From Actinomycetes bacterium (lineage in GTDB: Bacteria > Planctomycetota > Phycisphaerae > JAACET01), in the NCBI GenBank assembly GCA_030614915.1, contig JAUXAG010000003.1:62001-126000 (forward strand): 64,000 bases of DNA, read 5' to 3'. This document shows positions 38,476 through 44,995 of the stretch, in pieces (the stretch's first letter is position 1; each line of letters begins with the position of its first letter). The position numbers were made by a program, and so were the translations under genes. The notes under the pieces were generated by a model. That model worked only from the letters and a program-made list of their open reading frames with translations, had not been told where the DNA came from and searched no databases.

Positions 38476-38515
38476 GTTCGCCTTTGACATAGTAAGTTTG
38501 TTCGAGGATAAATTG

Positions 38516-38842
38516 ATGCCAACCTATGACTATCGCTGCTGTAACTGTGACCATAAGTTTGAAGTTTTTCAGTCCATGACCGCCGGTGTGCTGAAGAAGT
38601 GCCCGCAGTGCGGGAAGCTGTCCTTGAAACGGCTGATCGGATCCGGAGCGGCGGTGCTGTTCAAAGGTTCGGGTTTTTATACGACGGATTACCGCTCCAA
38701 GAGCTACCAGAAGCAAGCCAAGGCCGAAACTGACAAGCAAGATAGCAAGAGCGAGAAATCGAAGACAAAGCAAACGGACTCTGCGGGCAAGAAGAAAGCC
38801 CCGGCAGCTGGGGATTCGAAGCAGGAGAAAAAGATCGGCTAG
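38516..38842 (+). CDS. FmdB-type zinc ribbon protein
   Basis: MPTYDYRCCNCDHKFEVFQSM...CPQCGK. Confidence 0.85.
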   Translation: MPTYDYRCCNCDHKFEVFQSMTAGVLKKCPQCGKLSLKRLIGSGAAVLFKGSGFYTTDYRSKSYQKQAKAETDKQDSKSEKSKTKQTDSAGKKKAPAAGDSKQEKKIG

Positions 38843-38876
38843 CTCCGCGGGAACTGACAAGGGAATTTGGATATAG

Positions 38877-39095
38877 ATGAGCGGTCGTGAGAAATGTCGG
38901 GCCTGTGGGCGAAAGTTAGCAGCCCAGGCTAAAGAAAGGAGCCCCTGGTATCCGTTCTGCTCCCAGCGTTGCCGGTGGGTGGACCTGGGCCAATGGTTCG
39001 ACCAGAAATACCGCCTGGCCGAGACGAAAGGACCGCTGGGGGTCCCGGAGGGGGACAAAAACAGGGCGAATGGGGATAAATCCGAAAGAAAATGA
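38877..39095 (+). CDS. yacG: YacG-like zinc-binding protein
   Basis: CRACGRK...PFCSQRCRWVDLGQWFDQKYRL. Confidence 0.8.
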   Translation: MSGREKCRACGRKLAAQAKERSPWYPFCSQRCRWVDLGQWFDQKYRLAETKGPLGVPEGDKNRANGDKSERK

Positions 39096-39289
39096 GGCCG
39101 GAAAAACTTTGTTTTTTGCTTGGCTGGACCGCTTGGAGGGCTCTATAATCTGCAGAAGCCCAAGGGCCGGGGTTCGGCCACTATATATGGACAGGCCCAG
39201 CGTCGGCAAGAGCAGGTAAATAACCTTCTAAGCAGGGCATTTGTCCTGCAGGAAGCAAGAGTCCACTATCTGATCGAAAGGAGAGGTCA

Positions 39290-41038
39290 ATGGCGGAAGA
39301 AAAATTAGAGTTACGCGGGATCAACTGGCAGGAGACGTTCAGCTTTACCCACGTATTCCGGAGCTTCCGACTGGCGATCCACCCCAGCAAACTGGTGTTG
39401 GCCTTTGTGGGGCTGGCCCTGTGTGTGATAGCCGGGTTCGCGCTGGACAGGCTCTGGTACGGCGGCCAGGCGATTATCTGGCAGAACGGTAAGCCTGTGG
39501 AAATCGAGGTCTTCGCCGATAAAGGCGTCGCAGGTCAGGACTTTGGGACTTGGTACGAGCAACAGGCCAAAAGTCGCGAGGATAGACTGAAAACACTCCG
39601 CAAGCGGGAACTGGGTCTGGACGCAGATGAAGTGAGCATCTACTCAGCCTCCTTGGCGGGTAAACTGATCGCGGCCAAGAATGAAAAGCTCCAGGATTGG
39701 CTTAAAGACAACAGTCTGGACAATAGAAAAAGGAAAATCAAAGACAGTTACGAGAATCAGCCGGAGCGTCGCGATAAGCTTCTGAGAAGGGCTAAAGAGG
39801 AAGTACCAAAGGAGCTTTTGGCCAAGCGTAGAGAAGTACATGGCCAGATGGAATCGATTAGGGATTTGGTAGGCAAGGGGCCGGCCGGCCGTGGACCATT
39901 CAGGGCTCTGCTCCGCTATGAGCTGGGCGTGTTCGACAAGGTGGTGACCTCTGCGCTGGGACCGAACCTGCTGGGTGGTCTGGAGATGACGGCCAGCGAG
40001 GCCGATGCGGGAGTGGTTGTGCATATTTGGCGGGGACTGAAGGGTTTGCAATGGTTGTTCAAGCAGCACCGGGTTTACTTTGTCATCTTTGGGGCGTTCT
40101 GGCTGGCAGTCTGGGCGATTTTTGGTGGAGCTATCAGCAGAACGGCCGCCCTGCACGTGTCCCGAGGCGAGAAAATTTCTATCAAAGAAGCCCTGAAATT
40201 CGGGATAAAGAAATTCCCCAGCTTCCTGTTTGCCCCACTGATTCCGGTGGCTATTGTGGCTGTTCTGGTAGTGCTGGTGCTGGTCGGTTCTTTCGCCCTG
40301 GGTAACTGGGGATTGGGGATCGGCGAGGTGCTGGTCTCGGTGCTGATATTCCTCTCGCTGATTGTAGGCTTCATCATGGCTCTGGTGGCGGTGGGCACAG
40401 TGGGGGGAGTGAATCTGATGTATCCGACGATTGCCGTGGAGGGCTCAGACAGTTTTGACGCCATAAGCCGCTCGTTCAGTTATGTGTACGCCCGTCCCTG
40501 GCGGATGGCCTTTTATTCGCTGGTAGCCATGATTTATGGCATACTTTGCTATTTGTTCGTGCGCTTTTTCGCATTTTTGGTTCTGAAACTTACCCACATG
40601 TCGGTCGCCGCCGGGATAGGCCGTCCAGGGGCCGGTAGTTATGGCCTGATAGACAAATTCACCAGCATGTGGCCAGCTCCGCAATTATTCGGCAGTCTGC
40701 ACGGCGGGTTCGACTGGGCCGCGTGCCAGGGGGCTCAGACGTTCGGAGCCTTTGTTATCGGCTTGTGGGTTTATGTGATTGTCGGTTTCGTGGCCGCATT
40801 TCTGGTCTCCTTCTTCTTCTCGGCGAACACGATGATCTACTACCTGCTGCGGAATAAGGTGGACTCGACGGATATGGATGACGTGTACGTGGAAGAAGAG
40901 CCCGAAGAACAGACTCCTCCGGTGGCCCAAGAGCCCGCCGAGGGTGGTGAAGCTGAAAAGCCCAAGGCCAAAAAGCCCAAGCCGGAAGAAAAGGCCGATG
41001 AGCCGCCCGAGGAGGAAAAACCCTCCGAAGGTGAATGA
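39290..41038 (+). CDS. Multi-pass membrane protein with charged C-terminal tail
   Basis: 582 aa, several hydrophobic segments, K/E/P-rich tail KPEEKADEPPEEEKPSEGE. Confidence 0.75.
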   Translation: MAEEKLELRGINWQETFSFTHVFRSFRLAIHPSKLVLAFVGLALCVIAGFALDRLWYGGQAIIWQNGKPVEIEVFADKGVAGQDFGTWYEQQAKSREDRLKTLRKRELGLDADEVSIYSASLAGKLIAAKNEKLQDWLKDNSLDNRKRKIKDSYENQPERRDKLLRRAKEEVPKELLAKRREVHGQMESIRDLVGKGPAGRGPFRALLRYELGVFDKVVTSALGPNLLGGLEMTASEADAGVVVHIWRGLKGLQWLFKQHRVYFVIFGAFWLAVWAIFGGAISRTAALHVSRGEKISIKEALKFGIKKFPSFLFAPLIPVAIVAVLVVLVLVGSFALGNWGLGIGEVLVSVLIFLSLIVGFIMALVAVGTVGGVNLMYPTIAVEGSDSFDAISRSFSYVYARPWRMAFYSLVAMIYGILCYLFVRFFAFLVLKLTHMSVAAGIGRPGAGSYGLIDKFTSMWPAPQLFGSLHGGFDWAACQGAQTFGAFVIGLWVYVIVGFVAAFLVSFFFSANTMIYYLLRNKVDSTDMDDVYVEEEPEEQTPPVAQEPAEGGEAEKPKAKKPKPEEKADEPPEEEKPSEGE

Positions 41039-41067
41039 TCAGGCGTCCGTCTACGCTGGAGAGCGAG

Positions 41068-41268
41068 ATGAAGATCGAAATTGAACGCGAGCAGGATGGT
41101 CAGTGGATCGCGGAAGTGCCTGATCTAGCAGGCGTTATGGTCTATGGCCAAAGCCGCGAAGAAGCCATTTCCAAGGTCGAAGCCCTTGCTCTGCGCGCTA
41201 TTGCCGATCGTTTAGAGCACGGCGAATCAATTCCGGAGCTTGACGGACTCTTCGCGGTACCAGCATGA
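41068..41268 (+). CDS. hicB: HicB-like antitoxin
   Basis: MKIEIEREQDGQWIAEVPDLAGVMVYGQSREEAISKVEALALRAI. Confidence 0.8.
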   Translation: MKIEIEREQDGQWIAEVPDLAGVMVYGQSREEAISKVEALALRAIADRLEHGESIPELDGLFAVPA

Positions 41269-41480
41269 GCCGTTGGCCCTCGAGCAAGGCTCGAAGGGTG
41301 CTTGCCGCTCTCTTGCGCATCGGATGGTCTATTAAACGAGAGGCTAAAGGTTCTCATCGTATTCTCTCTCGCCCCGGTCGACCCGACTTCGTCTTTGCGT
41401 TTCATGATGGTGACGAGATTGGTCCTCGGATGTTGGCCCGCATCGCCAAACGCACAGGCCTAAAGCCGGACGACCTTTGA
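41265..41480 (+). CDS. hicA: HicA-like toxin
   Basis: GWSIKREAKGSHRILSRPGRPDFVFAFHDGDEI; overlaps hicB by 4 nt. Confidence 0.8.
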   Translation: MSRWPSSKARRVLAALLRIGWSIKREAKGSHRILSRPGRPDFVFAFHDGDEIGPRMLARIAKRTGLKPDDL

Positions 41481-41491
41481 GAACCCCAAAC

Positions 41492-41553
41492 AAGCCGGCG
41501 AAAAGGACGACGAGTCGCCCGAGGAGGAAAAACCCTTCGAAGGTGAATGATCA
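41492..41553 (+). pseudogene. Displaced duplicate of the 3' end of the 39290-41038 gene
   Basis: KQAGEKDDESPEEEKPFEGE* versus KPEEKADEPPEEEKPSEGE* (40979-41041); identical ggtgaatgatca ends. Confidence 0.88.
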
Positions 41554-41580
41554 AAGGTCGTTTGACGTAAACTGAACAAA

Positions 41581-41612
41581 GGCCGATCCGCCTGCGGCGG
41601 ATCGGCCTTTGT
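41581..41612. terminator. Intrinsic terminator
   Basis: GGCCGATCCGCC-TGC-GGCGGATCGGCC-TTTGT. Confidence 0.8.
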
Positions 41613-41827
41613 CATTGGCTCAGGGGACTAGAAGCCATCCCACAACCCCAATTTCTACTGCGAACGGCCCTCTTTGCTCTGCGAAGCGCTACGCAAAGCA
41701 CGAGTTTGTCGTCTGGCTGCGTCGGGCGAACTCAATATATTCTCCAAATATGTATCGTTTTCGCTTCTTGCCAGCCGACAAAACTGCTCGTTCTCGCCAC
41801 GAAAGCAGGTTTTGGGATGGCTTCTAA

Positions 41828-42148
41828 TTATTCCGGCTGGCAGATAGTAAAAAGCCACCACCGGTTTTTAGCTTGGCCCTTCGATCGGGGCTGGCGTTCA
41901 AAGTAGATTTTCATTTGCAGGCCGTCGGTGGTTCGAATCCTGAACCAGTGTTTGCGCAGATACATTTCTGGCGAGTGGCTCTTACATGGTCCCGACTCCT
42001 TCCAGGTTTCAAGCAACTCGTCCAGGGCGTATTCTTTGTCTCGCCAGAGAAAGCGACGTGGAAACCCCGGCTCGCCTCTGGCCATGCCTTGAACATCACT
42101 GCTGCCAGGGCAGGGGTGGATGGGTTCACTGACGAATTCTTCTTTCAT
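41828..42148 (-). CDS. DUF6504-like hypothetical protein
   Basis: EPI...FLWRDKEYALDELLETW...YLRKHWFRIRTTDGLQMKIYFER...WWLFTI pattern. Confidence 0.5.
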   Translation of the reverse strand: MKEEFVSEPIHPCPGSSDVQGMARGEPGFPRRFLWRDKEYALDELLETWKESGPCKSHSPEMYLRKHWFRIRTTDGLQMKIYFERQPRSKGQAKNRWWLFTICQPE

Positions 42149-42250
42149 GGCTGCCGTCATTTTTGCTGTTGCTATTCTTGAAGCGAATCATTTTGATGCG
42201 GATAAGTTCCTCAGGCAAGCAGGGCTCCTTTGAAGCGTAGGTGCTGGCGG

Positions 42251-44995
42251 CTATTGTGCCGGGGGGTATTTGACGAGTTCGGGCTTGGGTGTGGTGACGC
42301 AGATGAGATGGTGACGGGAGAGGTATTTTTTGCCGACACGCTTTACGTCGTCCAGGCTGACCCGGTTGATCCGCTGGGATAGAGTCTGAGAGTGCTCATA
42401 GCCCAAGCCGTAGAGCTCGTCCAGGGCGGCAGCGGCGGCCCGGTCGGCGTTGGTCTGGCGATTGATGAGCTCCACGGCAATGATGAGACCCTTGGCCCGG
42501 GCGAGTTCTTCGGTGGTGAATTCGCCGGCGGCGGCCTTGGCGAAGTTTCGCTCCAGGGCCTCGATGACCTCGTTGACCTTTTCCGGCTCACAGGCGGCAT
42601 AGGCGGCGAAGTAGCCAGGTACCAGGCCGCTGAACTCGTAAGCGTGGACTACATAGACCAGTTTGCGCTTCCGAAGCTCCTCGTGCAGCCATCCTCCGGG
42701 CATGTAGTAGCCGGAGATGATGGTGTCGAGGACCTTCAAGGCCATGCAGTCCTCGGTTTCGGTGAGGACGGTACCGGGAAAGGCAACCATTACGGTGGCT
42801 ATGCTTTTGGTGGTCTGCTCGACGGCCAAACGATTGCTGTCAAAAGACTCAGGGGGCAAGTAAGGAATGGTCATTTTGTCGCCGGCCGGCAGGCGGGAGA
42901 AGTACTGGCGGATGAGCTTGCAGGCCTGGGACGGATCGAAATCGCCGTATATAGCCAGGACGGCGTTGCCGGCCACGGCGAGGCGGCGATGATGGGCAGA
43001 TAAGTCCTGGGGGCCGACCTTTTTGATCACCTCGGCGAATCCTGTGGGCAGACGCTTGTAAGGCGAGGTGCTGAAGAATTGATCGCGGAAGAACAAGGAC
43101 ATCTGACTGTGCCAGTTTTCCTTGAGAGCAGCTATGTCGGCCAAGAGCTGAGGACGAAGCTTGGCCATTTCGATGGGGTCGAAGGTGGGCTCGGTGACTA
43201 CTTGGGCAAAGATGTCCAAGGCTTCGGGGAAATCTTCCTTGAGGACCTGCCCGAGGTAATAAAGAGTGTTTTTGCCTGAAGCAGCTGCAATCTGGCCGCC
43301 ACGCGAGTCGAAGAAGGATTCTATCTGGTCAGCGGTGAGCTTCCTGGTGCCCTTTAGGCAGGTGCGGGCGGTGAATCGGCCAATCCCGTTGTTCTCGGCG
43401 GTTTCAGCCAGCAGTCCGCCGCGGAAATATATCTGCATGGAGACCAGGGGTACAGCCCTGCTGGGCCGAAGGACCACTCGTAAGCCGTTATCGAGAACGA
43501 ACATTCTGGGTGAATCCGGGGCGACTTGGCCAATAGTTACAGTCTTCTCGGTCGGGGTGAGGTCCTTGGGCAGAAGCATGGTCAGGCAGAGCTTGTTGGG
43601 ATCAAGATACATGCGGGCGACTTCTTGTATCTGCTCGGCGGTAACCTTCTGGATTTCGCTGACGTATCTGTCGGAGAAGTGTGGATTGCCGGTGGACAAG
43701 AGGTCCCTGCCGATTTGGTCAGCTTGGCCCTCAACGGTCTGCAGAGGGACAATGTAATCTGCGATCGTCTGCCGTTTGGCTTTGGCGAGCTCTTCTTCGG
43801 TTACGCCCTTTTGGATGAGAAGGTCGAGCTCGTCGGCGATGGCCCGGCGGGCGGGTTTGAGCTTGGCAGGATCAATGCGGGCCTGAATGACGAAAGAGCC
43901 AGGGTAAAGGGGGGGCGTGGCCGAGTAGGAACTGATGCCCAGAACCAGCGAGGCGTCACTCTTGAGTCGTTTGACCAGACGCGAACTTTCGCCCCTGGTG
44001 AGAATATAAGACAGGGTGTCCAGGGCGTAAAGATCGGGATGGGTCAGCTTGATAGAGGGATAAGCCCAACTGATCAGGGCGTGGGGAATGTCGCGGTACT
44101 GAATGCGAGTGCGTGGGCTGCTGGGCGGCAAGTCGGCGGGCATGACAACCGGCGGAAGGACCCGGCGAGAAAAGCCGGCAAATTTCTGGGCTACTATCGC
44201 TAGAGCCTTACGCGAATCGATGTCACCGACGATGCTGATGATTACGTTTTGGGGGACATAACGTCGGCGATAATAGTCCAGCAGGTCGTCTCTGGTAACG
44301 GCGGCGAGGGTGGGGACATGGCCGATAATTGGAAAGGCGGCGGGGTGCCGGCCGTAACGATTCTCAGCGGCAAGGTTGTAAAGCACGCGGTGTGGTTCGT
44401 CCGCGCCTTTTTCGATCTCGCGCTGAACCACGCCGTGCTCGCGGGCGACCGATTCGGGATCCAACAGGGGATGCGTAATCCAGTCGGCCAGCAGTTCGAC
44501 GGCAATATCCGCCCGCTCGGCGGGAACGGTTAAATGATAGCAAGTCTGACTGCGGCTGGTATAGGCGTTGGAGACGGCTCCGATCTTTTCGACGAGCAAC
44601 TGCGACTCGTCCTCAGTGCGCTTAGGGGTGGCTCCGCCGTGGAGGAGGTGCTCGAAGATGTGGCTGAGTCCGGCGCCGAGGTGGTCGCCCTCGTGGATGG
44701 AGCCGGTGGCTACGTATAAACGCACAGCTACGACCGGGTTGGTGTGGTTTTCCTTAATGGCCACCTGCATGCCGTTGGACAGGGTGGCAACGATTTCTTC
44801 GGGGGCACTGATCAGCCAGGACTCGACAGTCAGCGGCGGAGGCGGCGCTTGAACTGTAGGTTCGGGCGATGGCGGTGCTTGTTGGGCGGGGGTGCTGTCT
44901 GATTGGGCAAGAATGGGCCAGGTAACACATCCAAGCAAGGCCAAGAGTATGATGCCGGTCAATAGGGCGGACCGCTTGGGATGATTAGAGACCAT
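42251..44995 (-). CDS. M16 family zinc peptidase, exported
   Basis: HIFEHLLHGG (HxxEH), duplicated M16 domains, N-terminal hydrophobic signal; start at ATG 44995. Confidence 0.88.
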   Translation of the reverse strand: MVSNHPKRSALLTGIILLALLGCVTWPILAQSDSTPAQQAPPSPEPTVQAPPPPLTVESWLISAPEEIVATLSNGMQVAIKENHTNPVVAVRLYVATGSIHEGDHLGAGLSHIFEHLLHGGATPKRTEDESQLLVEKIGAVSNAYTSRSQTCYHLTVPAERADIAVELLADWITHPLLDPESVAREHGVVQREIEKGADEPHRVLYNLAAENRYGRHPAAFPIIGHVPTLAAVTRDDLLDYYRRRYVPQNVIISIVGDIDSRKALAIVAQKFAGFSRRVLPPVVMPADLPPSSPRTRIQYRDIPHALISWAYPSIKLTHPDLYALDTLSYILTRGESSRLVKRLKSDASLVLGISSYSATPPLYPGSFVIQARIDPAKLKPARRAIADELDLLIQKGVTEEELAKAKRQTIADYIVPLQTVEGQADQIGRDLLSTGNPHFSDRYVSEIQKVTAEQIQEVARMYLDPNKLCLTMLLPKDLTPTEKTVTIGQVAPDSPRMFVLDNGLRVVLRPSRAVPLVSMQIYFRGGLLAETAENNGIGRFTARTCLKGTRKLTADQIESFFDSRGGQIAAASGKNTLYYLGQVLKEDFPEALDIFAQVVTEPTFDPIEMAKLRPQLLADIAALKENWHSQMSLFFRDQFFSTSPYKRLPTGFAEVIKKVGPQDLSAHHRRLAVAGNAVLAIYGDFDPSQACKLIRQYFSRLPAGDKMTIPYLPPESFDSNRLAVEQTTKSIATVMVAFPGTVLTETEDCMALKVLDTIISGYYMPGGWLHEELRKRKLVYVVHAYEFSGLVPGYFAAYAACEPEKVNEVIEALERNFAKAAAGEFTTEELARAKGLIIAVELINRQTNADRAAAAALDELYGLGYEHSQTLSQRINRVSLDDVKRVGKKYLSRHHLICVTTPKPELVKYPPAQ

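Follow-up and report, generated by a model that had tools for sequence, protein, structure and literature searches.

It has long been asked how toxin-antitoxin (TA) pairs of half a kilobase come to be in chromosomes across phyla when they carry no transposase, and a locus in the 64,000-nucleotide stretch of DNA analysed here (the window) raises the question in a concrete form. A hicBA pair lies there between two copies of the end of one and the same gene. Was that gene end duplicated in place when hicBA was inserted, or is one of the two copies the original end, pushed downstream by an incoming one? If the latter, each displaced gene end would record the arrival of a TA pair, such scars could be counted in any genome, and the idea of recombinational insertions held in place by addiction would become testable.

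hicBA between two copies of a gene end

The two copies (40979-41041 and 41492-41553) match as direct repeats with hicBA (41068-41480) in between, and form by far the strongest direct repeat within 38500-43500: the flanks of hicBA give a local-alignment score of 95, against a maximum of 26 in 100 shuffles. The gap-free core of the repeat spans 54 nt (40988-41041 and 41500-41553, spacing 512) and is identical at 50 of 54 positions, with one more indel upstream of it; the copies show 5 mismatches, and three of the four changed codons are nonsynonymous. Copy 1 forms, in frame, the last part of a 582-aa ORF (39290-41038, forward strand, as are all features of the arrangement) coding for a membrane protein that belongs to no Pfam or NCBIfam family, yields neither Rhs nor any other domain in a Pfam search, and has homologues in 54 of the 61 related genomes searched. 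Copy 2 has retained the reading frame and the stop (EEEKPFEGE*) without the gene body.

Between the copies, a 26-nt leader with a Shine-Dalgarno-like TGGAGAG (41042-41067) runs from copy 1 to a hicB-like antitoxin gene (41068-41268; 66 aa, MKIEIEREQDG...), which overlaps the hicA toxin gene (41265-41480; 71 aa), and an 11-nt junction (41481-41491) links the hicA stop to copy 2. HicA scores above the Pfam cut-off (PF07927, 51.5 bits against 27, E=1.1e-13), while HicB, only 66 aa long and in the expected position, falls just below it (PF15919, 25.4 bits against 27, E=1.7e-5; UPF0150, 19.8), and we regard the two as a predicted type II TA pair. An intrinsic terminator hairpin (ACAAAGGCCGATCCGCC...GGCGGATCGGCCTTTGT; 41576-41612, -34.5 kcal/mol, z=-9) sits 3' of copy 2.

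Three genomes of the family could be searched, all from one genus, and they include both an empty and a filled site. In G002, whose protein is 66% identical, the gene has a single tail (...SSEGE*), followed some 30 nt later by a hairpin whose stem is again GGCCGATC, and the window's hicBA has no match in that genome. The stretch behind the stop of copy 2, together with the hairpin, aligns to G002 better than 99.8% of shuffles (p=0.002); a resemblance between the leader behind copy 1 and the post-stop stretch of G002 was also considered and dropped as not significant (p=0.12). Because the single tail of G002 joins the homologous hairpin, copy 2 and the terminator are the native gene end, and hicBA is an insertion at the junction of gene and terminator. 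Both points had been suggested in the first-pass annotation, which also noted the repeat, its shared frame and stop, and the strong terminator; the check it had proposed, on a relative lacking hicBA, was run on G002 and agrees with it, and its sense that the locus is out of the ordinary is likewise borne out.

The second relative, G001 (protein 86% identical), has the complete arrangement of tail, hicBA and tail, with an identical leader. A likelihood scan for boundaries between the window and G001 delimits a tract of low divergence at 40868-41552, with 20 differences in 685 positions inside (2.9%) and 241 in 1822 outside (13.2%). In the gene body 13.9% of sites differ (23% at third positions), whereas hicB and hicA differ at 2.0% and 2.8% (3-5% at their third positions), and the right edge of the tract is the end of copy 2. 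Given the contrast between inside and outside, the segment 40868-41552 has moved between species as a unit ending at copy 2. Such an edge would be expected if copy 2 acted as a recombination arm, and the arrangement would either have been moved at least once by homologous recombination after its origin or have recently entered both lineages from one source.

Just past the terminator, the window holds a MITE-like segment of about 198 bp between 19-nt inverted repeats (41629-41826, 95% complementary), which is not at the corresponding place in G001. It is followed by a DUF6504 gene on the reverse strand (41828-42160; PF20114, 103 bits), the sequence of which is present in G001 and, in G002, is not found between the 582-aa homologue and the next gene.

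Recurrence across toxin-antitoxin loci

A scan of genome contigs with HicA (query: positions 41265-41477 of the window) yields 80 close relatives from many phyla, at 69-87% protein identity; at E 1e-5, neither the 72,556 plasmid records nor the 50,697 phage records contain a match to this subfamily. Taking a score of at least 50 between flanks as a strong direct repeat, such repeats flank 15 of the 77 testable loci of this HicBA subfamily (a count that includes G001 as L041 and leaves out the window itself), 10/50 other HicA loci of the phylum and 5/49 ParE loci. The corresponding figures are 27/2038 for random windows in the same loci (p=3e-12) and 0/327 for non-TA units (p=4e-15 against all TA loci), the latter counted after removal of three units that overlap the hicBA locus of L111. 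The pattern recurs at unrelated genes and around other TA families, and the suspicion of a recurrent capture process, voiced when the locus was first read, is upheld. This recurrence, across many phyla, suggests that tiny selfish pairs spread by recombining through host gene ends.

The repeats range from 35 to about 265 bp, and about half of them are copies of gene ends, the others being intergenic, interspersed or without assignment. Among the gene ends are those of a 463-aa gene (L111, 265 bp), a pheT-like gene (L092, 202 bp), a 169-aa gene (L079, copies identical at 145 of 149 positions) and a 455-aa gene (L089, the last 35 bp, identical at 35 of 35), as well as those at L075, L195, L203, L199, L192, L218 and L271. 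Gene ends occur in both orientations relative to the TA pair, lying on the opposite strand at L047 and L104, and two loci (L110 and L064) repeat a gene start. Gene names at these loci were read from the sequence by eye except where Pfam was run, and nearly all loci come from metagenome-assembled genomes. Four loci were excluded from the support, three for interspersed or simple repeats (L119, L180, L188) and one as a contig-edge artefact (L088); L104, where the locus is complex and the genome has another copy of the gene, is interpreted for its orientation only.

Several members of the subfamily (L077, L078, L083, L084, L106 and others) have attC-like flanks (GTTGGGTGGCA... / ...TGCCACCCAAC), and integron cassettes may be a further vehicle for the subfamily. 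Visual inspection finds no attC-like sequence around 41042-41067 or 41481-41553 in the window.

A proposed entry through gene ends and its alternatives

On balance we favour, as fairly probable, the integration of a foreign gene end together with its TA pair by homologous recombination, with displacement of the native tail. In a related organism hicBA would have followed immediately after this gene, and a DNA fragment carrying that junction would have entered the cell and integrated through the gene end common to both. The gene would then end in the incoming tail (copy 1) with hicBA next, and the native tail (copy 2) and its terminator would be left downstream as a relic; that copy 1 is the incoming end is suggested by the contiguity of copy 2 with the native terminator, and by L111 (see below). 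We infer a single crossover as the likely route, by a small circle comprising the gene end and the TA pair and closed at a random point just past the toxin. Such an event would account for the variable length of the repeats, for the lack of conserved ends (no common sequence is evident across loci) and for the lack of a recombinase (no recombinase ORF lies between the window repeats). The same features, an absent recombinase ORF, ends that differ between loci and repeats of 35-265 bp, led us to reject a transposon with target-site duplication. In Escherichia coli, short linear fragments homologous to the target at one end mostly circularise and enter by a single crossover, leaving duplications of 109-950 bp around the cargo (PMC3240628). 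The likeness lies in one homologous end being enough and in the partial duplication of the target, the difference in this being a laboratory reaction with a marker and not a natural TA route. Among the loci examined we saw no free circle, no repeat-less donor with a TA pair behind the gene and no live transfer. Direct repeats should collapse by recombination, and loss of the TA pair would be punished by free toxin; this penalty, we propose, is why TA cargo stays when other cargo is lost.

That penalty might explain the pattern by itself. Repeats could be common around any insert and vanish by collapse, remaining visible only where toxicity preserves them, so that no TA-specific route would be needed. 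The presence of the pattern at unrelated toxin families (HicA, ParE, PIN) and in one array fits such a filter, as does the near absence of repeats from control units. Orphan tails also lie beside non-TA cargo (transposase-like and endonuclease-like ORFs), which speaks against it, and it is not really exclusive of displacement; as a complete explanation we give it somewhat less than an even chance.

A circle-free variant of displacement would be homology-facilitated illegitimate recombination (HFIR), in which a linear fragment would pair with the gene by homology and be joined illegitimately just after hicA, upstream of the native tail. The product would be the same as that of the circle, and HFIR is known in competent bacteria, but it usually deletes recipient DNA, and the duplications obtained in E. 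coli stem mostly from circles (PMC3240628). By inspection, moreover, the junctions display no clear microhomology. We consider this variant rather unlikely. A search of the literature for HFIR together with toxin-antitoxin returned no match.

Still less likely, in our estimate, is a duplication in place, in which hicBA would have been inserted illegitimately (by staggered break fill-in, template switching or a transposition-like event) with duplication of a 35-300 bp target and later decay of the relic. Some repeats are indeed identical or nearly so (L089, L079 and L082, the last at 47/48), and in the window most differences are nonsynonymous; its repeat fits relic decay after duplication in place as well as it fits displacement, and counts against the latter, as does the half of flanking repeats that are not gene ends. 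Decay of an in-place duplicate should leave differences at all three codon positions in equal measure. In the 15 coding cases, the copies differ at 34, 23 and 81 first, second and third positions, 59% of the differences being at third positions, an excess over both one third (p=9e-10) and 0.45 (p=8e-4), the latter being a rough figure of our own that allows for relic decay or for constraint acting on the attached copy. Repeat lengths are also too variable for target duplication by a transposase.

At L111, the 463-aa gene is present in all four nearest relatives, with no hicBA at that place. The displaced copy of L111 differs by 10.1% from G136, another species, and by 13.1% from its own partner, with 7 against 6 private changes. 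The copies would be two ordinary alleles of the group, as the displaced one has no excess of private changes and is not accelerated. Their first ~44 bp are common to both, possibly through gene conversion or because the donor already carried the repeat. At L047, likewise, the relic tail is closer to the tails of relatives than the attached tail is. The polarity test was unusable at L092, whose nearest relative is too distant (81%), and at L178 there were no relatives with the gene.

In aggregate the divergence of the copies is allele-like, and the third-position excess and the displaced copy of L111 suggest that a foreign gene end was brought in by recombination. To speak of "duplication" is probably mistaken, the copies appearing, where they can be resolved, as diverged alleles of the same gene end. 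Of the tail duplication that the first-pass annotation described, the second copy stands, while in-place duplication is not supported as the general origin; the 62-bp repeat of the window is itself too short to separate it from allele displacement. Chance, assembly artefact or interspersed repeats are highly improbable as an explanation: nearly all loci do come from metagenome bins and three proved interspersed or simple repeats, but the window arrangement is found in two separately assembled species, the copies differ in sequence as assembly duplications would not, and the enrichment is at p<1e-11.

A relative of L092, L139 (in G076), has hicB directly after pheT and is a donor-like neighbour; this hicB is seemingly frameshifted or abnormally ended, and lies near a contig end.

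Known systems and a restriction-gene array

Site-specific elements that insert in the 3' ends of genes, tRNA genes and others, restore the end with incoming DNA and displace the old one. The loci described here differ from them in having no integrase, no fixed attachment site, a cargo of only ~0.45 kb and repeats of 35-265 bp. Rhs C-terminal tip displacement is a close known parallel, and homologous recombination with circular intermediates has been proposed for it (Jackson et al. 2009, PMC2935791), the circle being no more than a proposal there, as it is here. In Rhs loci an incoming end displaces the old gene end downstream as an orphan, and arrays of displaced ends result; the loci here likewise show an intact gene carrying a new end, with an orphan one further downstream. 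Rhs genes, however, have variable tips that are themselves the cargo, whereas the present genes are ordinary ones (membrane protein, tRNA synthetase, nucleotidyltransferase, restriction enzyme) with near-equivalent allelic tails, and a TA pair separate from them is the cargo.

Our literature searches found one direct precedent, a parDE-like module fenced by 152-bp direct repeats in Microcystis aeruginosa PCC 7806 (PMC7935541). It too is a type II pair within long direct repeats behind a host gene, but those repeats start 14 bp past the stop codon, are identical, and have not been tied to a gene end or a mechanism (PMC7935541).

L178 led us to an array at L304 (contig G252:C102, 7509-14125), in which an Eco57I-type methylase/restriction-modification gene is followed by four TA modules (DUF6883, PIN_3, HicAB and ParE/Phd) and then by a DUF433/DUF5615 region. 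The modules are split by orphan copies of the gene's tail (its final ~35 codons, with a stop in every copy), which makes five tail copies including the attached one. By analogy with the proposed Rhs tip arrays, this looks like repeated rounds of one event at one gene. We tentatively extend the displacement reading, at not quite even confidence, to a general recombinase-free spread of small TA pairs behind gene ends into relatives, in which a single crossover would displace the native tail, addiction would block collapse, and repeated rounds at one gene would leave TA arrays interspersed with old tails, L304 being an example.

The same restriction-gene tail (DEELDFIINYDIKYRMG) also occurs as orphan copies next to other cargo at L329-L336 (genomes G278, G450, G517, G279, G241, G568, G475 and G495, mostly of family f59). 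Named by eye, the cargo includes an endonuclease-like ORF at L331, a MazEF-like pair at L334 and transposase-like ORFs; in two of the last the restriction-gene tail itself forms the end of the ORF (L330, 2701-3456, and L336, 1999-2574, coordinates in the orientation analysed).
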